A stretch of DNA of 34,400 nucleotides from a virus, in IMG/VR virus record IMGVR_UViG_3300007363_000057, positions 1 through 34,400 of that record; one strand, 5' to 3'. The notes beneath the pieces were generated by a model. It searched no databases. It was not told the origin of the DNA and was given only the letters and a program-made list of their open reading frames with translations. Positions 7,879 to 25,281 of this stretch are shown piece by piece; position 1 is the first letter of the stretch, and every line of letters begins with the position of its first letter. A program made the position numbers and the translations under genes.

Positions 7879-7948
7879 AAAGGGTTACAGTCGGTGAGCG
7901 CGTTCGATGCTATGCTTCCCATATCATTTCCATTTATGGGGGTTCATC

Positions 7949-8812
7949 ATGCAGATTGGGGAATTGCTCGCACTTTATCAACAGCATCATCTCGCCGGGC
8001 GGCCGTCGGCTCGCTATTATCAACGCCTCACGCGCCAGGTATTTCCGCCCATCTCAGAGGAGCGGCTGAGCACACTCGACAAGCGCGTGATCTTGGCCTG
8101 GTGGACGTCATTGAGTGATCGCCCTGGACATGCCAATAAATCCATCGGACTTCTTCGAGCCGCCGTCAGATGGGCGCGAGCGGTCGGCCTTATTCCGATC
8201 CTGACGCCCGATCCCACCGCCGGGATCGTCAAGCGCTCTGAGCGCACGCGCAGCACCACCGCCAGCCCCGACGAATGGGCCCGGCTGCTCCCCTTCCTCG
8301 AAGATCTCCGCCTGAAACATCGCGTTTATTTCTGGTCGCTTTACCTACTCGGCTCACGTCCAGGCGAAGTGCGGACCATGAGACCGGAGCAACTGTTTCT
8401 CGATCGATCCCTCGCCGTCTGGGTCAAACCCACCAGCAAAACCGGCCGGCCGCATGTGGTGCCGCTGCCCGATCAACTGATTCCGATTTTGCGCTTGTTG
8501 TTGAGGGCGAATCCGCCTGACGCACAATGGGTCTTCTGGGGCGAATCGCCCGATGTGGTCTGGTGCCGGACCTCCGCTCAAAAACTCTGGGAGGGCATCC
8601 GGACGAAAGCCGGGCTCTCGCATCTCTGGCTGAATGATTTGCGCCGCTCGACCGCCAGCGACCTCTTGAATCAGGGCGAGAGCCTCGGTATTGTGCAGGG
8701 CGCGCTAAACCATCGCAGCCTGAGCCAGACCGCGAAATATGCCTATCTCGCCGTCACCCCGTTAGCCCATGCGCTCCAAGAGCGAACCGATACCATCGTC
8801 AACGCCATCTAA
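7949..8812 (+). CDS. int: Tyrosine recombinase / phage integrase
   Basis: A 287-residue protein from the ATG at 7949, with GGGGG eight bases upstream. Residues 1-95 form the core-binding helical domain; 105-287 form the catalytic domain. Visible catalytic positions are Arg137 (GSRPGEV), Lys164 (SKTGRP), Arg232 (NDLRRS), His255 (LNHRSL) and the nucleophile Tyr264 (AKYAYL). The usual HxxR histidine is Asn229 (N-D-L-R), an unusual substitution. The protein lacks an obvious N-terminal arm-binding domain. It would recombine the adjacent attP with a host tRNA-Pro gene. It heads a rightward unit with two lipoprotein genes. Confidence 0.85.
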   Translation: MQIGELLALYQQHHLAGRPSARYYQRLTRQVFPPISEERLSTLDKRVILAWWTSLSDRPGHANKSIGLLRAAVRWARAVGLIPILTPDPTAGIVKRSERTRSTTASPDEWARLLPFLEDLRLKHRVYFWSLYLLGSRPGEVRTMRPEQLFLDRSLAVWVKPTSKTGRPHVVPLPDQLIPILRLLLRANPPDAQWVFWGESPDVVWCRTSAQKLWEGIRTKAGLSHLWLNDLRRSTASDLLNQGESLGIVQGALNHRSLSQTAKYAYLAVTPLAHALQERTDTIVNAI

Positions 8813-8830
8813 CCCAGGGAGAAACCGCTC

Positions 8831-9280
8831 ATGACAGCAGCAATCACCCTCCTTTCTCTCTTCCTTACCATCTCAGGATGCGGCCACTTTTTAACGACAC
8901 CAGAATATAGCATTCAACCATACCAAGGAATCTCCCAGCATCAATCAGACAAGGCCACTGTAGTCTTTCTCTGGCCAGATCGACGGTACGGAACGGCCAC
9001 TCTGGCGGTGCAGGAAAATAGGGCCATCATTGGCGCGCTGCAGGGGGGAACCTATTTCTCGCGCGCTGTCACACCAGGTCCTCATACCTTCGCCGTTGAT
9101 TCCGGATTGATAGAACACTCTCGCGAGCGTGTCTCTCTGGCGGCGATCACGGGCCGAGCTTATTTCATTCGCTACACGTCCGGCGGATTCCTTGTCGTGC
9201 CGACACTCGATATAATTTCAGAGGACACCGCCCTGGCGCAATTGCCGGACCTCTCCTTGATTCAGCTCGTCGAAAAATGA
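8831..9280 (+). CDS. Lipoprotein with DUF2846-like domain
   Basis: A 149-residue lipoprotein: a hydrophobic signal segment ending in the lipobox ISGC places the lipidated cysteine at residue 17. The mature part reads as a beta sandwich (ATVVFLWPDRRYGTATLAVQ, then LQGGTYFSRAVTPGPHTFAV) that matches the DUF2846 pattern of a small peptide-like domain in bacterial lipoproteins. It lies just after the integrase on the same strand, outside the lytic operons. This is where lysogenic-conversion genes usually sit. It probably decorates the host envelope during lysogeny; an exclusion role is possible but unproven. Confidence 0.7.
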   Translation: MTAAITLLSLFLTISGCGHFLTTPEYSIQPYQGISQHQSDKATVVFLWPDRRYGTATLAVQENRAIIGALQGGTYFSRAVTPGPHTFAVDSGLIEHSRERVSLAAITGRAYFIRYTSGGFLVVPTLDIISEDTALAQLPDLSLIQLVEK

Positions 9281-9311
9281 AGACGATAGCTAAACCACAA
9301 GGAGACCTCCC

Positions 9312-9593
9312 ATGAGATTCATCGCCCTGAGCCTGCTTGCCCTCCTTGCCGCCGGATGCGCCGCACCAGAACAAGTGTATTTCACCAAGCCCGGCGAATG
9401 GGACCCGGCCGCCCTCCAGAAAGATCGCGCAGAATGCGAAGCAATGGCGGAGAATTCCGCGCCCTATCGGCGCATCTACGGCAACCCCTTCATGTCTTGG
9501 TCTTTGCGAGACACACTCGTAGAGCAGACACGGGAATGTCTGATACACGTCCACGGCTGGAAAACGACCGAGACTCTCGCCCCGCCGCCATGA
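9312..9593 (+). CDS. Small lipoprotein, putative lysogenic-conversion gene
   Basis: A 93-residue protein with a strong ribosome-binding site (AAGGAG) and a typical lipoprotein signal ending in LAAGC. The mature part has two further cysteines (near residues 39 and 78) that could form a disulfide in the periplasm. It also has an aromatic segment YGNPFMSWSLRDTLVEQ. It follows the DUF2846-like lipoprotein by 31 bases and is probably co-transcribed. Similar small lipoproteins with a C-terminal cysteine are common in Gram-negative bacteria; function unknown. Confidence 0.65.
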   Translation: MRFIALSLLALLAAGCAAPEQVYFTKPGEWDPAALQKDRAECEAMAENSAPYRRIYGNPFMSWSLRDTLVEQTRECLIHVHGWKTTETLAPPP

Positions 9594-9617
9594 CCTAACC
9601 CCTGCCCAGCCAGACGT

Positions 9618-9833
9618 CTACACCGTCGGCATCCGGGCGAACCAGAGCGCCCATTCCTTCACATCTCGCTGTTCCGCCTCGCGTTGCATCGCCAGCGCGG
9701 CGGCCTGCTCGGCCCTGGCCCGTAGGATGGCTCCATCGATCCGCTCGCCGCACGAAAAGCAACGCCACCACCAGGGGCCGCGCTCATAGACATATTCCCG
9801 CAGCATGCACCCCTGGCAGCGATCACAGGTCAT
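9618..9833 (-). CDS. Zinc-ribbon protein at end of lysis cassette, 71 aa
   Basis: Starts at the ATG that overlaps the stop of the o-spanin-like gene (ATGA). Cysteines in CDRC (residues 3-6), C9 and CFSC (about 26-29), around a WWWRC segment, form a zinc ribbon. A long charged helix follows (AEQAAALAMQREAEQRDVKE). It is the last gene of the leftward late operon and meets the rightward lipoprotein gene 24 bases away; no clear terminator hairpin is seen between them. Function unknown. Confidence 0.6.
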   Translation of the reverse strand: MTCDRCQGCMLREYVYERGPWWWRCFSCGERIDGAILRARAEQAAALAMQREAEQRDVKEWALWFARMPTV

Positions 9834-10776: not shown

Positions 10777-11240
10777 GCCTCGCTATCTTTCAACACCACA
10801 TGCGGCTCTTCGATGTCGCAATCCATGTTGTAAAAATTCAGCCTGCCCAGTTTTCCCACGAACCGCTCCGGATGCTCCTTCGCCCACTTCGGAATCTTGT
10901 CGCCCTGCAAGCTATCGTCGTAGTAGCTGTCGATCCCCTTGAGCGGAGAATTGTGAAATTTAGTGATTACCCGCTCGGCAATCGCGAGACATTCCTCAAA
11001 ACTGGCATCATCCGATTTCGGCCAGGTCGTGAGTTGCTTGTCGTTTGGATCGGTCAGGCTGGAATACTGCCATTTCTTCGTGAGCACACTGATCCAGTCG
11101 TTCCCCCACCAGCCGGGATGATCCAGGCGATTTTTCACCGTATGCGCGACGGCAATCTTAACCTCATACGATTCGCCCCGCGCTTCACGCCAGAGCGTCA
11201 GCGCCAAGAGCGCAATCTCGTAATAGGTCCAGGCCGTCAT
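10773..11240 (-). CDS. Endolysin, SleB-type cell-wall hydrolase
   Basis: A 155-residue protein matching the Hydrolase_2/SleB domain. The motif LWREARGE (residues 16-23) contains the conserved Glu19 expected in the active site. It is followed by KIAVAHTVKNRL and by a Trp-rich WQYSSLTDPND segment; a later block ASFEECLAIAERVI is also typical. SleB enzymes are lytic transglycosylases or amidases acting on peptidoglycan. There is no signal peptide, so release depends on the holin. It is the first gene of the lysis cassette, coupled by ATGA to the tail-fibre gene before it. Confidence 0.8.
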   Translation of the reverse strand: MTAWTYYEIALLALTLWREARGESYEVKIAVAHTVKNRLDHPGWWGNDWISVLTKKWQYSSLTDPNDKQLTTWPKSDDASFEECLAIAERVITKFHNSPLKGIDSYYDDSLQGDKIPKWAKEHPERFVGKLGRLNFYNMDCDIEEPHVVLKDSEA

Positions 11241-12949
11241 GCAAAGATCTCCTGCGCCTTGAGCCAGGAGTAGCCCACACCCCCGAAGAGGCCAGCCCCG
11301 CTCGCTCCGTTGAACCGCACAGTATTCGCGTTCGCGCCCGCCCGAATCTTGAAGGTCGTCGAACTCGCCGTGCCCGTCAGCATCCGGTGCAGTAGCGTGT
11401 GCCGATAGTTCGCCGCGTTGGCGGTATGGTGCATGGCCTCCGCCGCCAGCGCGTTCGCCGTGGAGTCCTGAAACAGCGCCACGCTAATGAAGGCCGCGCC
11501 GCCCACTGCTTCATATTGCCCGCTATGCTCGATGTCCAGCAGGTTGAGCGCACTGCCCGGCGTGAGCGTGAGGCTCAGATATTGGTCGCCTTCCGTGTTC
11601 TGCGGGATCGTATTATCAAACGGCAGCGCCGTTGAGCCGGTCGCCGTGGCGCCATCACTCGCGGAGGGCGTCTGCATGATTTGCCCCGTGCGTGGAACGC
11701 CAGGCCCCAGCGTTTGGATCTTCGTGGGGCTGTTCGACCAGTTGCCGGCCGTGGCCCCGGTCTGAATTTCGATATAGCCGAGCAGCCGCACCGGGACGCC
11801 CGTCCTGGCTGTCGTGCTGTAGAGCACCTGCGCACTATCCGCCGCCCCCGCGCCCCCTTCGGCCGTCGTGCTCTGGAGCGCCGATTCATCGAGGCCCTTC
11901 AGGCTCAGTCCGCTCAGGGGATAATAGGCAAACCCCTCGACCGTCCCGGCATTGTCGAGCAATCCGGCATAGATCCGCCCGGTCTGGTTATTCGCAAAGC
12001 CCACCGTCGAACCGGCCGAGAGTGTCCAGGAGAGGGCCGAGGAGACTCGGCGGACGGTATAACCGCCATTCGTAATCGTGCTATGACGAAAGATGATCCA
12101 GACCGAATCACTCACCGAGGGATCCGCGCCGCTCTTCGTTTTCAGCGCGAAGGTCAGGATGTTGCTCCCCACGGTGGCCGTCAGCGTGCCATTCACGATC
12201 GCGCCCTGGACCTCGGCCCCGGCTCCCAGCGTGCGCAGGACGCTCGCCCACCCGCCAGCCTGCGCCGATAACACAATGCTGTCGCCAGGATTGAGCGTGA
12301 GCGTCGTCGCGCCGTCGATCGTCTCCGAGGCGTTCCCGTCGAGCGTGATGACGCCCGTCCCACTATTTTTCACCGTACACTCGAATCCTACCCCTGCCGT
12401 CGCCAATGCCAGTAGGGTGAGCGTCCAGGTGCCGCTGGTCCCATCGATGACTTTCCCCCGATCGGCGGCCACCAGCGTATAATTCGCCGTCTTGGCCGCG
12501 ATTGCCGCCACCGGCACCGCCGGGATGCGCCACAGCTCGTGCCAACTGGTACCGGTCCGCTTCAGGCAGAGCCAGTGCGTGGTGTCGCCGAGGGGAAAAT
12601 CACCGGATGTCCGCAGTAAAATCTGCCCCGATCCACCCGCCGCATGCTTCACCACCACCACCCGAGCACTACTCGCCGGGCGCAGCAGCATACAGGAGCC
12701 GTCCGGGAAATTCGTCTGCGTAATCGTCGCGAGATTGTCAGTGGCCGCCGCCGCTTCCGTGTCGATCGTGAAGATCGCCCCGCTGCCGCCTGGCGGCGTC
12801 ACGGCATCGCTCGCCAAGGTGAGCGTCGTTTCCGCCACGCCGGCGCCAGGGATCTGTTTCACCCCGGCCACGAAATCTTCAAACGCCTGTTTCAGCACGC
12901 CTTCATTGGCGGCCGTGGAAATCGCATTGAGAGCTGGCAGCGTAGACAT
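11237..12949 (-). CDS. Tail fibre / receptor-binding-type protein, 570 aa
   Basis: The last structural gene before lysis, with GAGGAG upstream of its ATG. The N-terminal part (ALNAISTAANEGVLKQAFED, then strand-rich segments to about residue 145) resembles adaptor regions of phage fibres. The middle has Gly/Ala/Ser/Thr-rich strands (TLTLNPGDSIVLSAQAGGWA) like those of beta-solenoids. The C-terminal 140 residues (from about GQIMQTPSASDG) form a beta domain seen at fibre tips (FDNTIPQNTEGDQYLSLTLT). It probably contacts the cell surface. Start and end are well defined by coupling; the receptor is unknown. Confidence 0.65.
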   Translation of the reverse strand: MSTLPALNAISTAANEGVLKQAFEDFVAGVKQIPGAGVAETTLTLASDAVTPPGGSGAIFTIDTEAAAATDNLATITQTNFPDGSCMLLRPASSARVVVVKHAAGGSGQILLRTSGDFPLGDTTHWLCLKRTGTSWHELWRIPAVPVAAIAAKTANYTLVAADRGKVIDGTSGTWTLTLLALATAGVGFECTVKNSGTGVITLDGNASETIDGATTLTLNPGDSIVLSAQAGGWASVLRTLGAGAEVQGAIVNGTLTATVGSNILTFALKTKSGADPSVSDSVWIIFRHSTITNGGYTVRRVSSALSWTLSAGSTVGFANNQTGRIYAGLLDNAGTVEGFAYYPLSGLSLKGLDESALQSTTAEGGAGAADSAQVLYSTTARTGVPVRLLGYIEIQTGATAGNWSNSPTKIQTLGPGVPRTGQIMQTPSASDGATATGSTALPFDNTIPQNTEGDQYLSLTLTPGSALNLLDIEHSGQYEAVGGAAFISVALFQDSTANALAAEAMHHTANAANYRHTLLHRMLTGTASSTTFKIRAGANANTVRFNGASGAGLFGGVGYSWLKAQEIFA

Positions 12950-12963
12950 AGGTTCGTCTCCTC

Positions 12964-14811
12964 TTAATAGCCTTTGACGGTCACGTCGGCGATCGTATCT
13001 ACGGGGGATCCCGTGCCATCGAACGCCATCAGCAACGGACCGGACACATCTTTATCCATCACCCGCACATGGGTCGCCGTCCCACTGTTAATCAATAGCA
13101 CCGGCGCCACGACCTCCACCGACCGATACGTCTGCACCAGCGACAGCCGGGTCCCGCTCGCGCTGAGCACGACCGCCGGCAGGAATTCCTCCACGTCCGG
13201 CATGTCGAAGATCGCCTGAAAATGCGTACAGCGCCCGGCGATCGCCCCGGCCAATGTGGTGAGGCGGAACCGATAGGCCTGGCGGGCGTAATTCACCAGC
13301 GAGCCCGTCCACGGGACAAATACATCCGGCGCCGTCGACCAATAGGGCGCCGCATCGTCGGTCCACGCCGGGCTGGACGGATCCGTGCTCCAGAACTGCC
13401 CGGAGCCGTCCTGCGCATAGTCGAGGTGCCAGCCGGTACCCTCCACCGCCAGCTCCAGCAGCAACGTGCCCCCGAGCCACTCCGCCGGCGGAATGATCTC
13501 CGCCTCATACACCATCTCACGGTAGCCTCCGGTCCAGACAGGGTTCGCATCGCCGGTCCAGTAGGGCGCCGCATCGTCGGTCCAGGCCGCCGACGAGGAG
13601 TCGGCCAGCAGATAGCCGCCGAACACCGTGCCCCCGGTGAGGGTGCCCGGAAATCCCAGCGTCTGCAGATCCAGCAGTTCCTCCACGTTTTGCGTGGCGA
13701 TCTGTCCATAATCCACGAGCACCGTCGCGGCCGCGAGGCTCTCATTCCCTGAGGTGTCCCGCGCCTTCACCAGATAGGTCCGCACGCCGCTATCACGAAA
13801 CAAGGGGAACGTCGTCGCGGAGATCAGGCCATCATGCAACGGCAGAGCGTCCGACCAACTGGTCCGCGTTCCGACATGCACCCGTACCACAAACCCGGCG
13901 AGATCCGGCGGGGCCTCGGGATATGCCCACACCAGCCGCTGATCGTTCCACGACAGCGCCGTCACGTTCGGCGGCGACGAGGTTTTCCCGATGACCGTAT
14001 AGGCATCGACCGTCAACCAATCCGACGCCACGCCAATCGCGCCGAGCGTTCGCACACGGAGATCATACGTCTCACCGTCCTCGACCTCCGTGAGCGCAAT
14101 CGGCACAGTGCCACCCGAGGGCGACTCGACCCGCAGCACGCGCCAGGACGATTGTCCGGTCCGCCGATACTGCACCTCCAGCGCCGTGACCGGCTGATAG
14201 GACCCCGATCCAAACCGCACCGTGAGCACAAGGCGCGGAGCCAGCGACCCATCGCTACTGCGCAGCATCACGGCTTCATCGGACGCGATCCCCTCCAGCT
14301 GCGGCGTCGGGACCGCGTCCAGCCCCACACGCGGCAAGGTAATCTGCGACTCAAACGGCGGAATCGCCCCCGTCGCGGCCAGATGCACACCAGGCGCCGC
14401 ATCGATGAGCATGAGCCGCGCCGTGAACTCCGGCCCCGGCTCGATACTTTTCACCAGCATCTCCACCGACTCGTCCGCATAGAGCCCAAACACCACGAGA
14501 TCGCCGACTTGCACCTGCGGGGCCTGAAAGAAACTGACACCGTGCCGCACGACCGCCACATACTGCACGCCGTTGCTGTCGAGTAATGCCGCCCGGTCCT
14601 GACTCGTATCGGCGCCGGCCGTGAGGGTGACGACGCCCGCATTGCTGATCGAGGGCGTCCAGATCCCCGCGGCTTCATCGACATAGACCGGCGGCGTGAC
14701 CGTGATCGCCGCCCCGACGATCGCCCACGTCACGACCCCCTCCGTCGAGATCGACGGCTGGAAGTGCGTCCCGTTAGGGCTCGTCAGACTCCAGCTGGTG
14801 AGCGTCGCCAT
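12964..14811 (-). CDS. C-terminal half of a tail-tip J-type protein
   Basis: A 615-residue protein. Residues 1-95 are a domain of unknown origin with two similar segments (PSISTEGVVTW and PSISNAGVVTL). From about residue 100 the sequence VGDLVVFGLYADESVEMLVK, SIEPGPEFTARLMLIDAAPG and IPPFESQITLP matches what follows the beta region of gpJ-like tail-tip proteins. Fibronectin type III-like domains come next (about 175-360). The rest has repeated WTDDAAPYW blocks at about residues 405-505. The first half of J lies about 2.6 kb upstream and ends where this sequence should continue. Together they would build the tail tip that meets the host surface. Confidence 0.65.
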   Translation of the reverse strand: MATLTSWSLTSPNGTHFQPSISTEGVVTWAIVGAAITVTPPVYVDEAAGIWTPSISNAGVVTLTAGADTSQDRAALLDSNGVQYVAVVRHGVSFFQAPQVQVGDLVVFGLYADESVEMLVKSIEPGPEFTARLMLIDAAPGVHLAATGAIPPFESQITLPRVGLDAVPTPQLEGIASDEAVMLRSSDGSLAPRLVLTVRFGSGSYQPVTALEVQYRRTGQSSWRVLRVESPSGGTVPIALTEVEDGETYDLRVRTLGAIGVASDWLTVDAYTVIGKTSSPPNVTALSWNDQRLVWAYPEAPPDLAGFVVRVHVGTRTSWSDALPLHDGLISATTFPLFRDSGVRTYLVKARDTSGNESLAAATVLVDYGQIATQNVEELLDLQTLGFPGTLTGGTVFGGYLLADSSSAAWTDDAAPYWTGDANPVWTGGYREMVYEAEIIPPAEWLGGTLLLELAVEGTGWHLDYAQDGSGQFWSTDPSSPAWTDDAAPYWSTAPDVFVPWTGSLVNYARQAYRFRLTTLAGAIAGRCTHFQAIFDMPDVEEFLPAVVLSASGTRLSLVQTYRSVEVVAPVLLINSGTATHVRVMDKDVSGPLLMAFDGTGSPVDTIADVTVKGY

Positions 14812-14823
14812 CGTCCATCCATC

Positions 14824-16140
14824 CTAGTGATTATCACAGCCGCAGACATCGGAGGCCGTGACAGTGAATCCGCCAATCACAAAATTATTGCCCCGCGTGG
14901 CCGTCACGGCATCCGGCGCATTAGCCCCCATCAGCAAGCCCGCATAGGGGCCAGACAACGGCGGATCCGGATCCGCGACAGACAGCACCGAAACATCATT
15001 GCGATAGATCGTCAGCACCCCATCCCGCACATGCACCCGCACGACATCATTCGTCGTCCAGGAGGTGAGCGCCTCCGATGCCAAATCCGCCACAGAGACG
15101 CCAGCGCTAAACCGCGCAATCTTCGAGCTGAAGGCGCCGCCGGTGTTCCGCGCCACCGTCATTTCATAGCAGGTATAGGTCGGCGGGGCGGTGCAGGCGA
15201 GCAGGAGGCGCACGCTCTGAAACCCGGCGCCACCAAATGCCGAGAGGGAGATTTGCGCCCAATGATTGGCCGGGACGCTCGCCCCCACATAGGCCATTGC
15301 GTTCGAGGGAGAGCCGAGCAGACTCGGCTCGACCACATTGCTCTCGATTTGCAATTCCGGGAGCGTCTGACTCGATCGGATATACCCTGACAGCCAGTTG
15401 ACGCCTAATTGCCCATTGAGTCGATCGAATCCGTCGGAGGCGATGGTGTAGCGATCCCCCGCGCCGCCAGGAGCCCCGCCCGTCGTCGCCCCAGTGATAT
15501 TGCTCAATGGGCCAAAGATCGGATTACTGCCCCAGGTCCCACTGAACGGCACCAGCTGAAATTGATAGGCGGTGGTCGTGCTTAACCCGGTCACCGTACA
15601 GGTTTTCGTGGCCCCGACCGTCGTGCCGGCCAACGGAGTCGCGCATGTGCCACTCGCAACCGACGCCGCCTGCCCCCAGGAAATCACAGGTGATTGCACG
15701 CGCACATCGTATGAACACGGGGCGCCGGCACACGCAACCTCGGTAAACGACAGGGTCACATCCGTGGTATTGACGGTCGGCACACTCAAGTTGGACACGA
15801 TATTGTCGACCACGATCACAAACGGCACTTCCGTGGCCGTTGCCGACGGGCTTTCATTGCCCGAGGTATCAAAGGCACGGGCGCTTAAATAATGCTGCCC
15901 GGCATTAAAGCCGAGCTGCGAACAGGGCACGGAGGTAATTTGCGTCCCGAACGTCGCAATGAGGTTCGGCGTCCCCGAGAGCGAGACCCGATCATAGAGC
16001 CGATATCCCGCCAGATCCGATTCGGTGTTCGCATTCCAGGCGACCGTCGCGCAAGTGCCGTTAAACGACACCCCATCAGCCCAGGCCGCCAGCGGATGCG
16101 CCAGGAGCAGGACGCACAGATACGCTATGACGCGACCCAT
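14824..16140 (-). CDS. Sec-exported FnIII/LamG-like protein, 438 aa
   Basis: The ATG at 16140 overlaps the upstream stop (TGATG) and directly opens a signal peptide (MGRVIAYLCVLLLAHPLAAW, cleavage after AWA). Two fibronectin type III-like domains follow (about 22-105 and 110-215; NTESDLAGYRLYDR is diagnostic of the first), with disulfide-type cysteines. From about residue 225 a concanavalin/LamG-like sandwich follows (YTIASDGFDRLNGQLGVNWL; VVRVHVRDGVLTIYRNDV). Such domains bind carbohydrates or surfaces. A signal peptide is odd for a virion protein and suggests export to the periplasm or surface. It sits between the two halves of J. Confidence 0.65.
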   Translation of the reverse strand: MGRVIAYLCVLLLAHPLAAWADGVSFNGTCATVAWNANTESDLAGYRLYDRVSLSGTPNLIATFGTQITSVPCSQLGFNAGQHYLSARAFDTSGNESPSATATEVPFVIVVDNIVSNLSVPTVNTTDVTLSFTEVACAGAPCSYDVRVQSPVISWGQAASVASGTCATPLAGTTVGATKTCTVTGLSTTTAYQFQLVPFSGTWGSNPIFGPLSNITGATTGGAPGGAGDRYTIASDGFDRLNGQLGVNWLSGYIRSSQTLPELQIESNVVEPSLLGSPSNAMAYVGASVPANHWAQISLSAFGGAGFQSVRLLLACTAPPTYTCYEMTVARNTGGAFSSKIARFSAGVSVADLASEALTSWTTNDVVRVHVRDGVLTIYRNDVSVLSVADPDPPLSGPYAGLLMGANAPDAVTATRGNNFVIGGFTVTASDVCGCDNH

Positions 16141-17441
16141 CAATTCGCCACCTCCGGAGAGCACGACACCTCTACCCAATTCGTCCCGTCATAGATAAAG
16201 GTCACCGTGCGGCGCGTCCCGTTGGCAGGCTTCGTGAAGCTCGCCATCTTATATTGGGTATCCCAGGTGATCGTCCCGAGCGCCCCCCCGCTGGTATTTT
16301 TCACCTGAATCAAGAGCTGCTGCCCCGCATACGCATTCAAGGGATTTGCGATGGTGAAATTGGTACTATTGGTCGCCGTGATGATATTCAGCGAGCCGTC
16401 GTTGCCGTTGATCGTCACGCTGGCCCCATAAGTGGGAGTCGCAATCGTGCCGATCCAGCGCTGGGCCAGGACCGACGTGAAATTCGCCGGACCGGGCGTG
16501 GTTCCGCCAATGAGGCCCGGCGACCCCCAGTCCACCGTCCCCGGCGAGACCGCCACCCAGCCCGTATTCCCAGTGCCCGCTTCTTTACTATAGAGCACGG
16601 TCCCGGCGCTGCCGTCGGTGCGGAAAAAGAGACTGCTCACATTTGCCGTGACGACCCCTTCAGGACTGCCTGTTCCCCAGCGGATCGTGGCCGCCGTCCC
16701 AGCATTGAACGAGCTGTTTGCCTGAACCGTCGTCCCGGTAATCGCGGCCGGCGTGGTGCTGCCGATCGCGGCCGGCGCCGACCAGTCCGCGCCATCCAGC
16801 AAATCGCCGTTGAGATTCGACACTTTAGTCGTACTCGCGATGACCAGCGGCGCGGTGCCGGAGGCCAGCGTCGAGGTGATCTGCCCAGTGGCCGAGAGCG
16901 TCGTAAACGCGCCGGTGTTCGGGGTGCCGCTGCCGATCGTGCCCGGAGCCGTCCAGCTCACGCTGGAGAGCGCGACGGCCACCCAGCCGGTATTCCCCAC
17001 GCCACTTTCCTTAATGTACAATGTGGTCCCGGTGCTGCCGTCCGTGCGGAGGTAGCGACTGCAGACCGGCGCAGTGTGGACGCCTTCTGGCGAGCCCGCG
17101 CCAGACAAGAGCTGGCAGGTCCCATTGACGAAGCTGCTCGTCGCCGTGATGGTCGTCCCAGAGATCGCCCCAGGCGTGGTGCCGCCGATGGTGCCTGGCG
17201 CGGGCCAGGTCGCACTGCCCCCGATCGCGCCACTGACGGTCGGACTCGTCAGCGTTGGCGCGGTATAACTCGCGCCGCCCGCCACGGTCCCCGAGACGGT
17301 CGGGCTGGTGATCGTCGGAGCCGTCAGGGTTTTATTCGTGAGCGTCTGCGCGCTACTGGTATTCACCTGCTCGCTCGTCTGCGCCCAGACCGCCGGACTC
17401 CAGCACGCCACCACCGCCACTAGCATCCATCGCATCAGCAT
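16140..17441 (-). CDS. Sec-exported tail-fibre-like protein, 433 aa
   Basis: The ATG at 17441 is preferred, with AAGGAG five bases upstream. A signal peptide (MLMRWMLVAVVACWSPAVWA) precedes a mature part beginning QTSEQVNTSS. It continues with SAQTLTNKTLTAPTITSPTV, a motif common in phage fibres, then Gly/Thr/Ser-rich repeats (TIGGTTPGAISGTTI). Two copies of a block with GSPEGV, RTDGS and GNTGWVAV occur near residues 115-155 and 255-300. The C-terminus has TYGASVTINGNDGS-type strands like fibre tips. The combination of fibre motifs with an export signal is unusual. It begins ten bases after the stop of the first half of J. Confidence 0.65.
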   Translation of the reverse strand: MLMRWMLVAVVACWSPAVWAQTSEQVNTSSAQTLTNKTLTAPTITSPTVSGTVAGGASYTAPTLTSPTVSGAIGGSATWPAPGTIGGTTPGAISGTTITATSSFVNGTCQLLSGAGSPEGVHTAPVCSRYLRTDGSTGTTLYIKESGVGNTGWVAVALSSVSWTAPGTIGSGTPNTGAFTTLSATGQITSTLASGTAPLVIASTTKVSNLNGDLLDGADWSAPAAIGSTTPAAITGTTVQANSSFNAGTAATIRWGTGSPEGVVTANVSSLFFRTDGSAGTVLYSKEAGTGNTGWVAVSPGTVDWGSPGLIGGTTPGPANFTSVLAQRWIGTIATPTYGASVTINGNDGSLNIITATNSTNFTIANPLNAYAGQQLLIQVKNTSGGALGTITWDTQYKMASFTKPANGTRRTVTFIYDGTNWVEVSCSPEVAN

Positions 17442-17450
17442 AGCCACTCC

Positions 17451-19937
17451 TTAAATCGGCGCGAGTAACGTCAAGGTCGACTGCACCCCTGGCACGTTGA
17501 GCACTTCGCGCTGCGCATAGGTATTATCCGACAACCGAATCCGCACCCCGTAGCGATCGCCCGCCTGCATGGTGCAGGGCTCATCGAGGGTGATCGCCGT
17601 CGTCCGGCCATAGCCATCGGTGGAGACCGCTTTGATCCGGCCGGTAATGAGCCCGAAGAGCGGCACATCATGCTGCACGAGCACCAGATCACCCCGGTTG
17701 CAGGTGAGGTGCTCCACGTCCATCTGCACCTCGTAACTTTCCGGGCGCAGTGTGGCCACAGCGAGATGATAACGGCCGTGCCGCCAGGCCAGCTCCGGAT
17801 CTGTCACGCCCGTGAGTTCGAAGGCCTCAAACCGCGTGGCGTTGGCCGCGCTATAGCCATCGGCATAGACGATCCGTTCGTCCTGCTGCCAATCCTGGTC
17901 AGGATTCACAAATCTGACTTTCAGCGCGTGCGGGATGGCCGTGAACGTCCGCGTCCCGCGAAAGCCCCAGCTGTTCCGGGGCGTGATCATCTGCGTCGGG
18001 ATCGTCTGCGGCAAATCCTCGACCACGGAAAAGAGCCCGTCCTGCCGATGCAGGCTGGCCCGCCCAGCGGCCAGGACATCGCGGCAGAGCTCAAACACCG
18101 TCGTCCGGTAGTCGATATTGGCGTTAAAGGTCCAGCCCTGCGCCGCGCAGGACTCATGAAACTGGGCGAGGCGCACGAGATCGAGCCGACCATCAGGGAC
18201 AGGCCGGGCATTCGCCGAGCCCTGCAGGACATTGCGATAGAGACTGGCCGGGTTGCTCGTAGGGCGCTCGACCCAGTCCGTCCCATTCCAATCCGGCAGA
18301 ATACTCTGTGCAATGAGGTTGAATTGATCGAGCGTGCCGTTCAGCTGATTCGTGGCCTTGATCCGCATGGCGATCATGCACAAGCCCGGCTTGGAGACCG
18401 GGGCCGCCGTCTGAATCGTGCGGAGGAGCGACCAATAGACCGTGTCGGTGCGCGTCAGTGACGCCTCGCTCGCCAGTTTGGAGACCGTCACCCGCACCTC
18501 ATACTGCATCCCTGAATCCGGCGGGACAATGGTCACCGCATAGCGAAACGGCTGGCGCGTGTTGCGCGAGACGACCAGCGGGTAGACCCCGTCGCGGCCC
18601 CCAGACAAATAGCCGCTCATATCTGTGACCGCCCCCGTGCCATCACTCCCGTCAGCGAGGGCGACCGCTAGTCGATCAGCCATGACTTGCCCAGGCGTAC
18701 TGCGGATGGCCTCAACAATCTCAGCCGCCAGCGTGCCCACCGGACAGCGCACGAGACACCAAGGCCCGATAAATTCCACCGAGATGACAAAATAGGAGAC
18801 ATCCGTCTGGATCGTGACGCGCCAATTGTTCCCCGCATAACCGACATCCGGCGCCGTAAACAACAGGTCGCTATTCGCCACCCCGAAGTCCGTCTCCAGT
18901 GACGCGATGACCGGCGGCTCATTGAGATCCAGCACGGTCCAGCCGCCGGTCCCGACCGGTCGATACTCCACGCTGAACGTCACGGTGTTGCCGATATCGC
19001 CGCGAATATCCGAGAAGTAGGTCGCCAACCCTGCGGGAAAGAAGAACTCCACCACGATTTCGCGCACGTTCGGCTGAGTCGTCCGGTGCTGCCAAACGCC
19101 GGCGGCCATTAACACCGACAGCGCATCTTCGTAGACATCGTCGGGAAACAGCGTGATCGGTGGATCGCCCGGGAAGCCATACCGGACCTCCATCTGCACA
19201 TCCTGAAAACTCTCCAACGGTGTTTGTCCGATCCGCATCTCCGACAACGCCAGAGGGCCATAGCCGCAACAGAAGAGGAGGCGCAGGTATTGATCGCTCC
19301 CGACCGCTTCGGTATAGGTGCGAGCGGCGAGCGAGGGAAAGATGCGATAGCGGCCATAGAGACGCGGAATCGGCGCATAGGGCGCGAGCTGATTCGACGA
19401 GCCTGTGAGCGAAAGCGTTGGGCTGAGATTCAGCCGGGAGAGATCTTGTAACTTCGGCGCAGCCGGAGGAATCAACGCGCTGACCGCGAGCGCGCCAAAG
19501 ATAGAGACGCCGATGCCGGCGGCGGCGGAGCCCAGCCCCCCCACACCAAACCCGGCCCCCGTCACCGCTCCGAACGCCCCGCCGCTAAAGAGTCCCGCGG
19601 TCGCTGCCAGCCCTCCGCCCGCTGTGAACGCGGCGGCCACGACCACCCCGATCATCGCCACGATGCGCAAGGCGTCTTTCCCGCCGCCACCCCCACCAGT
19701 CGGAATCACCCGCACCGTGACGAGCTGTGCGGCTTTCGGTCTAGCAAACTCCCACTCGGCCTTGAGAATCAATCGATCATCGATGAACACCCGCGCAAAG
19801 AGCGGATCAGGATTCAGGCCGATCGCCCGCAGCATCTCGGCAATGGTGCCGCCTTCGGGCACCTCGCGTTCAATCCGCGCCGTCGAAAACGGCTTGGGGC
19901 AGGCAATCAACTGCACGGCGGTGGAGTGCGCCAGCAT
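17451..19937 (-). CDS. N-terminal half of tail-tip J-type protein
   Basis: The start at 19937 is an ATG in a TGATG junction with the NlpC/P60 gene; the open frame continues upstream only as a shadow. The 828 residues contain a ubiquitin-like N-terminus (residues 1-85, PEGGTIAEMLRAIGLNPDPL). A Gly-rich hydrophobic region follows (about 95-165, IVAMIGVVVAAAFTAGGGLA). A long body then has typical J motifs (LAPYAPIPRLYGRYRIFPSL; NYGP-like LLFCCGYGPLALSEMRIGQT). It ends abruptly at QSTLTLLAPI, where complete relatives go on into a GDL-VFG segment and FnIII domains. Those parts are found in the 12964-14811 gene. It forms the tail tip around the tube end. Confidence 0.75.
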   Translation of the reverse strand: MLAHSTAVQLIACPKPFSTARIEREVPEGGTIAEMLRAIGLNPDPLFARVFIDDRLILKAEWEFARPKAAQLVTVRVIPTGGGGGGKDALRIVAMIGVVVAAAFTAGGGLAATAGLFSGGAFGAVTGAGFGVGGLGSAAAGIGVSIFGALAVSALIPPAAPKLQDLSRLNLSPTLSLTGSSNQLAPYAPIPRLYGRYRIFPSLAARTYTEAVGSDQYLRLLFCCGYGPLALSEMRIGQTPLESFQDVQMEVRYGFPGDPPITLFPDDVYEDALSVLMAAGVWQHRTTQPNVREIVVEFFFPAGLATYFSDIRGDIGNTVTFSVEYRPVGTGGWTVLDLNEPPVIASLETDFGVANSDLLFTAPDVGYAGNNWRVTIQTDVSYFVISVEFIGPWCLVRCPVGTLAAEIVEAIRSTPGQVMADRLAVALADGSDGTGAVTDMSGYLSGGRDGVYPLVVSRNTRQPFRYAVTIVPPDSGMQYEVRVTVSKLASEASLTRTDTVYWSLLRTIQTAAPVSKPGLCMIAMRIKATNQLNGTLDQFNLIAQSILPDWNGTDWVERPTSNPASLYRNVLQGSANARPVPDGRLDLVRLAQFHESCAAQGWTFNANIDYRTTVFELCRDVLAAGRASLHRQDGLFSVVEDLPQTIPTQMITPRNSWGFRGTRTFTAIPHALKVRFVNPDQDWQQDERIVYADGYSAANATRFEAFELTGVTDPELAWRHGRYHLAVATLRPESYEVQMDVEHLTCNRGDLVLVQHDVPLFGLITGRIKAVSTDGYGRTTAITLDEPCTMQAGDRYGVRIRLSDNTYAQREVLNVPGVQSTLTLLAPI

Positions 19938-20359
19938 CAGACGGGCCTCCCGGCGAGCGTGCGATGCCGCACAATGGCATCCAACCGCCGACGCCACAGC
20001 GGCGCATCCCATTTTTCTACCACCGCGCCGATGCCTCGTTGACAGTGCAGAAAGCACGGCGCGGTCAACACCAGCCCGGCATGGCACACCTGCCCCTGAA
20101 TGCGAAAGAGCGCCACATCGCCCGGCTGGGCCTCGGTGATCGACACCGGCACCCAGTCCAGCGCCTCGCGGGTGATGAGGGCGTGCAATTCTTCTCGATC
20201 CGTCGTCGTCACATAGTCCTCGGTATAATCCGGCACCGTCACTCCAAACCCCGCCGCCAGTGCCAGCCTGACGAGCCCCCAACAGTCGCACCCGGCCAGC
20301 GAGCGCCCGCGCTCTTGAAACGGCACCCCGATGAACGGCTTGGCCCACGTCATGGTCAT
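19937..20359 (-). CDS. NlpC/P60 tail-tip peptidase
   Basis: A 140-residue protein with the NlpC/P60 signature: GCDCWGLVRLALA with the catalytic Cys26, and CHAGLVL with His93, plus a PGDVALF segment (residues 79-85) before it. In siphophages such proteins sit between the tape measure and J genes (lambda gpK position). They process or assemble the tail tip or open peptidoglycan during DNA entry. Coupling to the DUF1833-type gene is by ATGA and to J by TGATG. The third catalytic residue is not identified by eye. Confidence 0.8.
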   Translation of the reverse strand: MTMTWAKPFIGVPFQERGRSLAGCDCWGLVRLALAAGFGVTVPDYTEDYVTTTDREELHALITREALDWVPVSITEAQPGDVALFRIQGQVCHAGLVLTAPCFLHCQRGIGAVVEKWDAPLWRRRLDAIVRHRTLAGRPV

Positions 20360-21188: not shown

Positions 21189-23371
21189 TAGCGCCTCCCT
21201 GGAGACGGATTGACGCCGTAGCGTTGGCTCATCGGCGCGTCGAGTTCACCGCCCCGCACCATCCCCTTCACCGCCTCGCGCACCGTGACATAGAGCGCCT
21301 GCCGGCCATCCGGCCCGCGCCCGGTCGAGGTCTGCACCTCGCTGCTGCCATAGTTGTTCACAATGACATTCAGCCCGCCACCCAGGCCGCTTTTAATGTC
21401 GCTCACATCGCGGCGGGACAGCACAAACTCGCCCGGCGTCAAGAGCGCCGGGACCGTATCCTGGTTACCGAACCCGAGCACGGGGCCGCCGAAGGCAAAC
21501 CGCTGGATCAGACCGCCCGCATTCGCCTCAATCCCAGACACTGACGGGCTCCCGCCAAAGAAGTTTGGCATATTCCCCGAGAACGCCCCGGCGAGCTGCT
21601 TCGTAATGAGCTGCCCGGCGAATTGGCTGGCGATCTGCTTGGTGAAATTCAGGAACGCATTCAGCACATCCTTGAATCTGGTGATCCGGCCCTCCATCGC
21701 ATCGAAGAAAAAGCGGTTCGCCGATTGCTCGATGGTCTGAAACGACCGGCGGGCCATGTCAGCGGCGAGCCCGAACCCCGAACTCGTATCCCGCACATAG
21801 TTCCGCATCCCCGCCGCCCAGCCGTCGAAGAAGTCGCCCGAGAGCTCGTTGATCGCCCCCCGATAGCGCGTCTCCGCCTTCAGGAGGCTCGTTTCGAGTT
21901 CTTGCTCCGTCTTCCCGATCCGGCTCCGCATACTCTGCAGGGCGTCTTCATCGGACGTCTGCCAGGCGATCAAGAGCCGGCCCGCCGTCTCGGTGGTGAT
22001 ATCCAACTCCTTGCCGAGCTCGGCCCGAACGAGATCGAGCCGCGTCGCTAAGATCATTTCATTCGAGCCGCCGACCTTCTCGCCGTACTCCTGCCACGCC
22101 TTCAGGTTCTCAATGAGGCCGTCGCGCTCTCTCACCCGCGCCGCCTCACTCACCGAGACTTGCAGTTTAGTCTGCTCGACGATCAGCCTTCCCTGGCGCT
22201 CTTGATAGGCGTCATCTTCTTGCTCGCGCTGCAGCTGTCGCTCCGTTTGCAGACGGTAGAGATCGACCCCTTCGGTGCGGAGCCTATTTTCAATCTCGAT
22301 GGCGCGATTGCTCGCGAGGTGAATTTCCAGCAGCGCCTTGCCGAGCTTTTCCTGATCCGCCACCTGCGAGATCGGCGACTTGCCGCCACCACTCTCTCCA
22401 CCGGATCCGCCTCCGGACGGGGCCAACACGCCCGATCCCGGAGCCGGCATCCCGAGCAAATCAAACCAGAATTGCTCGCGCGGCAACGTGCCTTCACCCT
22501 TGCGATGGCCGAACCCGAGCGCCGTAAAGGCATCCATGAGCCCTTGGCCGACGCTGGTCTGCCCAAACGCATCGGACATATTTTTAAGGTTCTGCGAGAC
22601 CTGCGAGGTTTCGCTCCCGAGCTCCCTGACTTTCCCGACGAGCTTCGTGAAGCCCTCCATCGCATCGGTGAGCGTCGGGAGCAAGGCGCCCCCGAGCTGT
22701 AACGTGAGACCCCGATTCGCCGACTCTAACCGCTTAATGGCATCGTTAAAGGCGTTCGCGGCCTCGGCATCTTCTTTCGAAAGCACCACCCCGAGCCGGG
22801 ACGCTTCACTCATCAGCGCGGAAATGCCGCTCTTACCTTGATTCAGAAAGGGAATCAGATCCATCCCGGCCTTACCAAAGAGCTTGACCGCCACTTCCGT
22901 TTTCCCCGCGCCATCCGCCGAGCTCGCAAAGACCTCCGCGAGATCGAGCAGTACCTGCTCGGTCGGGCGCAGCTGACCTGAAGCGGTCAGTGCCGAGACG
23001 CCGAGCCGTCGAAAGACCGCCTCGCCATCGCCGGTCTGCCGAGCCGCTTCCACCATGTTCTGCGAGAGCGATTTCAGGCTCACAATCAGCTGCTGCTGAT
23101 CAATGTCTGCCAATTTGGCAGCATAGGAGAGCGCCGTGAAAGTTTCGACGGTCTGGCCGGCCTTCTGCGCCCCTTTGAGCGCCTCTTCCCCGAAGTTCGC
23201 CGTACTCTTCGCGATGGCAAACAACGCCGCCCCGGCTGCCGTGAGCTGCGTTTTCCAATCCTTGATAAAATTATTGAACGATCCGAGCGCCCCTTGGCTC
23301 TTCTTCAGCTCCGATTGGAACTGATCGGCCACGAGCTTGAGGACCAGCGCGAGTTCGCGATTCTCAGCCAT
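21188..23371 (-). CDS. Tail tape measure protein
   Basis: A 727-residue protein in the expected position before the minor tail genes. The N-terminal part has helical segments (ELALVLKLVADQFQSELKKS, then FNNFIKDWKTQLTAAGAALF). Residues 60-240 are a conserved helical block of TP901/lambda-type tape measures. A long coiled coil (about 330-500) follows, with charged helices such as YRLQTERQLQREQEDDAYQE. The C-terminus has the standard DTVPALLTPGEFVLSRRDV motif. The length suggests a tail of about 110 nm at 1.5 angstrom per residue. Starts at an ATG in a TAATG junction. Confidence 0.85.
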   Translation of the reverse strand: MAENRELALVLKLVADQFQSELKKSQGALGSFNNFIKDWKTQLTAAGAALFAIAKSTANFGEEALKGAQKAGQTVETFTALSYAAKLADIDQQQLIVSLKSLSQNMVEAARQTGDGEAVFRRLGVSALTASGQLRPTEQVLLDLAEVFASSADGAGKTEVAVKLFGKAGMDLIPFLNQGKSGISALMSEASRLGVVLSKEDAEAANAFNDAIKRLESANRGLTLQLGGALLPTLTDAMEGFTKLVGKVRELGSETSQVSQNLKNMSDAFGQTSVGQGLMDAFTALGFGHRKGEGTLPREQFWFDLLGMPAPGSGVLAPSGGGSGGESGGGKSPISQVADQEKLGKALLEIHLASNRAIEIENRLRTEGVDLYRLQTERQLQREQEDDAYQERQGRLIVEQTKLQVSVSEAARVRERDGLIENLKAWQEYGEKVGGSNEMILATRLDLVRAELGKELDITTETAGRLLIAWQTSDEDALQSMRSRIGKTEQELETSLLKAETRYRGAINELSGDFFDGWAAGMRNYVRDTSSGFGLAADMARRSFQTIEQSANRFFFDAMEGRITRFKDVLNAFLNFTKQIASQFAGQLITKQLAGAFSGNMPNFFGGSPSVSGIEANAGGLIQRFAFGGPVLGFGNQDTVPALLTPGEFVLSRRDVSDIKSGLGGGLNVIVNNYGSSEVQTSTGRGPDGRQALYVTVREAVKGMVRGGELDAPMSQRYGVNPSPGRR

Positions 23372-25281
23372 TACAGCACCCCCCTGACATCGTCAGCCAT
23401 CGGGAGCCGCCCGTCGAGTGATCCCACCGTAGCCAGGGCCCCAGAGACGGCCTCCAGCGTCGGCAGTCCGACCGCCCGCACGGCCTGCGCCGTTGGCAAC
23501 GCACCCACGACCCCTGCCGCATACGACATCGAGGCGGACAGATTCGTCACACGGATATAACCCACCAGACTAGAAAGGAATTGCACCGACTGAGCGAGAT
23601 CGCTCTCGGTCACCAGCCCGATCGCGAGATGCTTGTGGCGAGCCACCGGCTGCGCCAGATCTATCTCCTCGATCAGCGCCAGGCCCCGCACCTTCAGCGG
23701 CGTCACCACCGTCGCCGCGTCGGCCTCCGTCGCGAGATTGATCACCCGGAGCTTGCGGGCCGCGAGCGGCTGTGCGCTGTCGGCATCGCTCGCCTGGCCG
23801 ATACCCCGCACCTTCACCGACCTCAGCGCCTGCGCACTGCCTGTCTCACTTACCAATCCCACAAGCCGCCGGAGCGGGTTGTGGGTAATTGCCTGCGCCA
23901 GATCCGTCTCGACGACTTGCTGGAGCGCGATCGTCACCCCGCCCTGCCGCGTGATCGGCTGCGCCAGATCCGCTTCGCTTGTTTGTCCGATCGGGCGAGC
24001 CTTCTGGCTGGTGAGCGCCGCCACACTGTCCGTCTCACTCGCCAGCCCCACAAGTCGCCGCCGCGGGCTCACCGTCAGCGCCTGCGCACTGTCAGTCTCG
24101 CTCGCCTGGCCAACAAGCCGACGGCGCGGATTGACCGTGAGCGCCTGCGCGAGATCCGTTTCACTCGCCTGTCCGATCTGGCGAGCCTTCCGGCTGGTGA
24201 GCGCCTGTGCCGCATCGGTTTCGGTTGCCTGACCAATAGCCCGTATCTTCAGCGTGGCAAGCGGCTGCGCGGCGTCCGCCTCCGTCGCCAGATTGATCAC
24301 GCGGCGCTTACGGGACGCGAACGCCTGGGCACTGTCGGCCTCGCTCGCCTGGCCAATACCCCGCACCTTCACCGACCTCAGCGCCTGCGCACTGTCCGTC
24401 TCGCTCGCCAATCCCACGAGCCGCCGACGCGGGTTCACGGTAATCGCCTGCGCCAGATCCGTCTCGACGGCTTGATTGACCGGAGCCGAAAGGGCCGGAT
24501 CGGCGACCCCTCGGAGGACATCTCCTCCGCGCAGGGTGGATTGACGCATCGTAAATGGCGGACCATTAGGGGGCGGAGTCGAATCCTGCGTCGGGGAAAA
24601 TACGCCATCGGCAGTGAGCCTGCGCGGATGGTCGGCTATCGTGGTCCCCGTGACTGTAGCGGAGCCAGCGAGCGACCCCATTGAGCCATCGAGTTCAGGG
24701 GAATACTGCCCGATCAGCGGATAGTACGCCACCAGGCCACGCCGGAAGAAGCTCGGCGCATAGCCCTTCGCAAGCGCCGCATGGATCCCTGCATCCAAGA
24801 GAATATTCCACCAGCCCAGCTCTGCCGCGAGACCGTTATATTTGTTACCCGACCCGGCGAACCGCTGGCCGATGGTCATCCCGACAGTATTGGTCCGCAG
24901 TGAGGCCCCAGCCGGCGTCGAGGTCTCAGTGACCGTCTGGCTCACCCCGTCCACATACATGACGGGATCGTTAGCAGTGGAACCGCCATCATAGGACACG
25001 GAAATATGATGCCAGCCTCCTGAGGACGGAGCCGGGCATGTCCAGGTCCCCGCCGTGGTCAACCAGTTGGCGGTAAATTCAAAGACGTTCGAGCCAGCCG
25101 GGGCAAAGAGCTGCACGTTGCCGTTTGAACCAGGGGTGTCGCGCCACTCCCATAACCGCCCGTCCGCCGCGCCGTACGCGGTGACGTTGACCCATCCGGC
25201 GAACGATCGCAGCGTGTACGGCGAGAGCGCGTTGGCCGTCACGAGATAGTCGTTCGATGAGCTCGAAAACCCTCGGGCCAT
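23371..25281 (-). CDS. LamG-domain protein with tandem 20-aa repeats, 636 aa
   Basis: Residues 1-205 form a LamG/concanavalin-like lectin domain (LRSFAGWVNVTAYGAADGRL; GGWHHISVSYDGG; MYVDGVSQ) followed by LVAYYPLIG and DHPRRL, common to phage LamG proteins. Residues about 272-567 are 15 tandem repeats of about 20 residues with a core SETDSAQAL and a basic spacer (RRRLVGLA or KVRGIGQA). A short C-terminal domain closes the protein. Similar ETD-repeat proteins occur in environmental phages. It lies between the chaperone/tube genes and the tape measure, in an accessory block. It is probably an adhesin or virion surface protein with an adjustable stalk. Confidence 0.65.
   Translation of the reverse strand: MARGFSSSSNDYLVTANALSPYTLRSFAGWVNVTAYGAADGRLWEWRDTPGSNGNVQLFAPAGSNVFEFTANWLTTAGTWTCPAPSSGGWHHISVSYDGGSTANDPVMYVDGVSQTVTETSTPAGASLRTNTVGMTIGQRFAGSGNKYNGLAAELGWWNILLDAGIHAALAKGYAPSFFRRGLVAYYPLIGQYSPELDGSMGSLAGSATVTGTTIADHPRRLTADGVFSPTQDSTPPPNGPPFTMRQSTLRGGDVLRGVADPALSAPVNQAVETDLAQAITVNPRRRLVGLASETDSAQALRSVKVRGIGQASEADSAQAFASRKRRVINLATEADAAQPLATLKIRAIGQATETDAAQALTSRKARQIGQASETDLAQALTVNPRRRLVGQASETDSAQALTVSPRRRLVGLASETDSVAALTSQKARPIGQTSEADLAQPITRQGGVTIALQQVVETDLAQAITHNPLRRLVGLVSETGSAQALRSVKVRGIGQASDADSAQPLAARKLRVINLATEADAATVVTPLKVRGLALIEEIDLAQPVARHKHLAIGLVTESDLAQSVQFLSSLVGYIRVTNLSASMSYAAGVVGALPTAQAVRAVGLPTLEAVSGALATVGSLDGRLPMADDVRGVL
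23581..24468 (-). repeat. Fifteen 60-63 bp coding tandem repeats
   Basis: The repeats encode about 20-residue units with a conserved E-T/A-D and A-Q-A/P-L core. Several copies are nearly identical in DNA: the block coding KVRGIGQAS near 23790-23820 is repeated near 24345-24375, with identical stretches such as CCTTCACCGACCTCAGCGCC. The array suggests unit duplication and recombination. Confidence 0.7.

Follow-up and report, generated by a model that had tools for sequence, protein, structure and literature searches.

A lambda J-type tail hub encoded in two pieces around two genes for predicted exported proteins

Here we describe a phage tail hub of the lambda J type that is encoded as two consecutive pieces, with two genes for apparently exported proteins lying between them. 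The window, a stretch of 34,400 nucleotides covering positions 1 to 34,400 of the viral record IMGVR_UViG_3300007363_000057 (IMG/VR), carries the N-terminal piece (J-N), P0003, P0004 and the C-terminal piece (J-C) in this order, all on the minus strand. Profile comparisons confirmed, at the sequence level, that J-N and J-C are consecutive pieces of one hub protein, and we consider it likely that they form a functional hub of two chains, which would associate non-covalently and complete their shared beta-domains in trans.

J-N (17451..19937, 828 residues) contains the gpI-like N-terminus, the hub domains and most of the OB domain, and it terminates in ...STLTLLAPI followed by a TAA stop. The 828-residue start is preferred over a 1004-residue open reading frame because its ATG overlaps the end of the gene directly upstream, which encodes an NlpC/P60 tail protein of the lambda K type (19937..20359). 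The next cistrons are P0003 (16140..17441, ATG at 17441), P0004 (14824..16140, ATG at 16140) and J-C (12964..14811, 615 residues, ATG at 14811); the P0004 ATG overlaps the P0003 stop, and the gaps in the run from J-N to J-C measure 0 to about 12 nt. J-C begins with an extension of about 95 residues (14527..14811), found among the loci fetched in split phages only, and continues with a remnant (14332..14508; VGDLVVFG...VKSIEPG...DAAPGVH) that is predicted to hold the last OB strand, the final strand of hub domain IV (HDIV) and a linker, followed by two FnIII domains (residues 164-371) and a C-terminal part. A P0005-type gene (11237..12949) marks the downstream end of the module. The genes follow the lambda-type order of tape measure, M-like, L-like, NlpC/P60 (K) and J, as they do in the relatives. 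The insert does not stand out as a sharp island in GC content, and no repeats of the kind that flank mobile elements were recognised beside it. Ahead of the tape measure gene lies a minus-strand gene (23371-25281) with a LamG N-terminus and many GLASETDSAQAL-type repeats, which has a relative in locus L048. The record probably covers part of a temperate phage genome, since it carries an integrase gene on the strand opposite to the late genes (7907-8812, plus strand) and ends near the major head protein, with no portal or terminase seen among the genes scanned.

The two pieces complement each other closely. PHROG 31 (central tail fiber J) matches J-N at profile positions 140-798 (E 2e-96) and J-C at 761-1071 (E 1e-13), and J-N additionally matches the Pfam families FNIII-A_GpJ and Phage-tail_3. 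When both were aligned to an intact-J profile built from 108 unsplit relatives, J-N covered nodes 1-231 and J-C nodes 240-369, so that the only piece absent is a linker of 8 residues. A preliminary description of this DNA had proposed that J stops at TLTLLAPI, that its continuation lies in the gene at 12964-14811 and that this second half has gained a new N-terminus, and these results bear it out: set against complete J proteins of one family, the halves are complementary, and the extension of roughly 100 residues is conserved in a second split locus, L005. The opposite outcome, in which J proteins of relatives end at this point and the downstream protein belongs to a different family, was not what the comparison returned.

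The break lies inside a folded domain. In lambda gpJ, the OB beta-sandwich (residues 483-569) interrupts HDIV, with strand 477-482 before it and strand 570-578 after it (PMC10721106). The J-N alignment extends to lambda J residue 538, and by interpolation the break maps near lambda J 546-555, within the OB domain. In the model of an unsplit relative, whose residues 6-478 align to lambda J 107-604 with a Z score of 27.7, it falls in a loop between strands 410-421 and 432-437 (pLDDT 92-97). Because the break lies in an OB loop, this model leaves J-C with two strands to supply, the last one of OB and the one that closes HDIV. The preliminary description was thus right about the position of the split, at TLTLLAPI/GDLVVFG, but the break lies within a domain and not between domains. 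Since this loop belongs to an OB domain inside HDIV, we infer that J-N and J-C assemble in trans; no single polypeptide spans HDIV and OB in the window, where they are divided over two open reading frames, which would imply a hub subunit made from more than one chain, of the kind known from lambda, RcGTA and JBD30. Folded alone, J-C gave a confident FnIII pair and a poorly modelled N-terminus and remnant, with residues 90-112 largely below pLDDT 50, compared with about 94-96 for the equivalent segment of the intact model. The poor model of the remnant fits a need for J-N, although part of the low confidence over J-C residues 1-112 may come from the alignment, which is shallow there because only two sequences carry the extension. 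The OB domain is a decoration that is absent from some hubs (LSH1; PMC13243795), whereas the HDIV strand in J-C belongs to the core. The OB part of the split phages shares a cysteine in the motif DEPC; we do not propose a disulfide link through this residue, as cysteines occur at or near the same place elsewhere in the family (e.g., L069, L118, L141).

We compared the window with related J loci, of which 135 were sampled (window included) and 123 show both sides of the break site. In line with the earlier expectation that J is normally one polypeptide, 121 of these encode it as one open reading frame: 118 with at most 150 nt, mostly 15-48 nt, between the two matches, and three in which a long insert keeps the frame (L003, 1248 nt; L071, 1440 nt; L152, 663 nt). 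The remaining two, the window and L005, are split. L005 has the same order of J-N, P0003, P0004 and J-C, at 44-45%, 60%, 46% and 52% identity, respectively, and 53% at the start of the next gene. On two shorter contigs, L022 and L049, J-N stops at the same residue, with the signal-peptide gene P0003 next. L022, assembled independently, has DNA 99.6% identical to that of L005 (15 differences in 3899 nt) and spans the J-N/P0003 junction, and L049 is a further divergent contig with a signal-peptide homologue of P0003 right after J-N. Given that the record is itself a metagenomic contig, unrelated pieces could in principle have been joined by misassembly, but the recurrence of the same order at about 50% identity in L005, the independent contig crossing the junction and the additional divergent contig make this explanation scarcely credible. 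The whole split arrangement is visible in two cases only, and every split case is metagenomic; the 50 bacterial-genome loci were all unsplit or incomplete, and no cultured host or isolate with the split form was found. Searches of viral contigs returned L005 as the sole match to alignment A1 and no match to P0002 as a single protein. A further candidate, L112 (3000-4400), was excluded from the split cases: its J-N match is cut short by about 60 residues and shows a frame change, the open reading frame after it is unrelated, and the locus probably reflects gene breakage or faulty assembly.

Within this sample, the unsplit form is ancestral. In the unsplit members of the same clade, L045, L048 and L071, J is directly followed by the P0005-type gene, and P0004 is absent from L045 and L048; we therefore regard the P0003 and P0004 genes as inserted, in agreement with the invasion suggested beforehand. 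The in-frame inserts of L003, L071 and L152 sit at the same loop as the break in the window, which marks this loop as a tolerated insertion site, and those of L003 and L071 contain LamG (concanavalin-like) domains.

The preliminary description had also placed two genes with signal peptides between the halves, and the open reading frames 17441-16140 and 16140-14824 indeed have hydrophobic N-terminal cores (maximum mean hydropathy 2.1-3.2) with A-x-A sites resembling those of signal peptidase. P0003 combines a predicted signal peptide (..AWA|QTSEQ) with tail-fibre-type repeats (GSPEGV...GNTGW) that are found across many phage fibre proteins, and occurs in L005, L022 and L049; its listed homologues outside the split phages lack an evident signal peptide. 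P0004, which is present in L005, has a predicted signal peptide (..AWA|DG), an Fn3 domain and a C-terminal end CGCDNH, conserved as CGCD(N/Q)H; it gave no PDB sequence match and no PHROG, and no relatives were found in phage records. Signal-peptide-like N-termini are kept in L005 for both proteins and in L049 for P0003. From their sequences, the two look like Sec-exported fibre/Fn3 proteins with a putative role as exported adhesins or host-surface proteins. They may be adhesins associated with the virion, although we consider this somewhat less likely than not; otherwise, they would be morons acting on the host surface. Signal-peptide-like N-termini were also seen on small Fn3/fibre-like proteins among the structural genes of environmental phage contigs (L006, L007, L008, L010, L013, L181), apparently including one tail protein without the signal in L008 (7012-8556) and with it in L181 (7551-8540). 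In the Bradyrhizobium phage ppBdUSDA122-1 (L040), the gene directly after an unsplit J (8332-9780) encodes a protein with a hydrophobic, signal-like N-terminus.

The arrangement of starts and stops bears on whether the halves could end up in one chain, whether by splicing of an intron or intein, by readthrough of the stop codon or by frameshifting. In the window, P0003 starts in the frame of the J-N stop, and readthrough could give a J-N/P0003 fusion there, but P0003 starts 2 nt past the stop in another frame in L005, and start and stop overlap (TAATG) in L049, so this frame relation varies. Moreover, each of the two genes that make up the insert is complete and has its own start, as does J-C, whose added N-terminus is conserved. 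No Rfam match to a group I or group II intron was found in the window, and no splicing domain was found in Pfam for the insert proteins. We regard joining of the halves as very improbable.

The split module has a history that differs from that of the rest of J. In the J-N tree the window pairs with the unsplit L045 (100/99); a clade uniting all three split J-N sequences is rejected by an AU test (p=0.0017). The J-C tree instead groups the window with the split L005 (100/99), and here the AU test rejects the pairing with L045 (p=6e-6). Along J-N, informative sites favour L045 by 146:34 over residues 1-749 and the split pair by 17:5 over residues 750-828, with a breakpoint near residue 749 (Fisher 7e-8 at the best cut; 0/300 permutations as low). 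This cut lies near the start of the OB domain, whose N-terminal part, as delimited by the informative-site scan and the published OB limits (PMC10721106), corresponds to the last ~71 residues of J-N (17451..17666). Between the window and L005, this OB part (62.5%) is the most conserved of the J-N regions compared and the remnant (69.5%) the most conserved of the J-C stretches; the extension is 58% identical over residues 1-95 and has no convincing match outside the split phages. Taken at face value, these patterns show the split module being exchanged between phages as a unit, and the simplest reading would be a transfer of the OB N-part, P0003, P0004 and J-C from an L005-like into an L045-like phage. 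Alternatively, the OB part may have converged under the split, and this would likewise point to pairing in trans.

These results also allow us to weigh two other accounts of the locus. The insertion of P0003 and P0004 into an ancestrally unsplit gene, together with an integrase that could mark a prophage, would be expected if J had been destroyed and the record came from a decaying prophage or defective phage. We consider this quite unlikely, as open frames are full length on both sides with 44-60% identity kept in L005, few parts are as well conserved as the strands that flank the break, and the module has been exchanged between lineages. Of the earlier proposals, assembly in trans and gene invasion, offered as alternatives, both appear to apply, whereas a wrecked gene does not agree with a split form that has been conserved over a long evolutionary time and has spread. 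Alternatively, J-C could be autonomous, its extension replacing the OB strands in cis, with J-N acting as a truncated hub onto which J-C docks as a separate fibre protein. The extension is predicted to be beta-rich and is conserved, but the closing HDIV strand resides in J-C and the rest of HDIV in J-N, so core pairing would still be needed; the low-confidence extension model shows no sign of completing the OB fold, and the OB N-part is a conserved stretch of J-N that has been inherited together with J-C. An autonomous J-C therefore seems improbable, if less so than a destroyed hub. A working hub of two chains is favoured because the split is conserved and spread and the flanking strands are so well preserved.

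In such a two-chain hub, both pieces would be translated from neighbouring cistrons of one tight operon. From J-N would come the hub domains, as far as the penultimate strand of the HDIV-inserted OB domain, and from J-C the last OB strand, the closing HDIV strand, the linker and the two FnIII domains closing the tail tip; the two would associate without a covalent bond, completing the shared beta-domains in trans. The break loop would be a surface insertion site, which holds in-frame inserts in relatives (LamG lectin domains in two of them) and, in the split lineage, two cistrons for exported adhesin-like proteins instead, and the module from the OB N-part and stop through P0003 and P0004 to J-C has been exchanged among phages as a unit. 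A more far-reaching version, which we regard as rather doubtful, is that completion in trans is by design. The break would then allow phages to swap the receptor-proximal half, made up of the OB part and J-C, as a cassette with two exported adhesins, and these adhesins might reach the tip from outside the cytoplasm, either once the cell has lysed or at its surface.

The OB loop of J thus tolerates a range of changes, from lectin domains and other inserts to full interruption of the chain by foreign genes. In a protein central to infection, this marks it as a place where splitting and insertion occur naturally, and the split module is a concrete case of modular exchange within one protein. It also raises the question of why tail-tip cassettes carry proteins with export signals.

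Hub subunits of one to three chains are already known (PMC13243795). One hub module is spread over several polypeptides in lambda gpL, gpI and gpJ as compared with T5 pb3 (PMC10721106, PMC13243795), and the lambda HDII-insertion is shared by gpL and gpJ with genes between them (PMC10721106). The window resembles this hub in having one beta-domain common to two chains with other genes between, but the lambda division falls at the HDI/HDII end, whereas gpJ is cut here inside the OB domain of HDIV, and the intervening genes encode apparently exported proteins and not hub or assembly proteins. Lectin-type domains in hub or distal tail proteins are known from the megatron and Dit insertion of roseophage R4C (PMC10276861) and the carbohydrate-binding modules of 936 lactococcal phages (PMC6669499). 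These are inserted in frame within one chain, as in L003 and L071; in contrast, the split lineage has a broken chain, and what is inserted takes the form of separate cistrons with predicted signal peptides. The lambda lom gene, for an outer-membrane protein, is similar in its position beside a tail-tip gene (lambda record), but sits after J, not inside it. The papers searched contained no earlier case of a J in two pieces or of tail fibres with signal peptides, and none described a gpJ interrupted inside OB/HDIV by genes for exported proteins. A multi-polypeptide hub as such is therefore already known, and a gpJ divided within OB/HDIV around genes for apparently exported proteins would be a new form of it.
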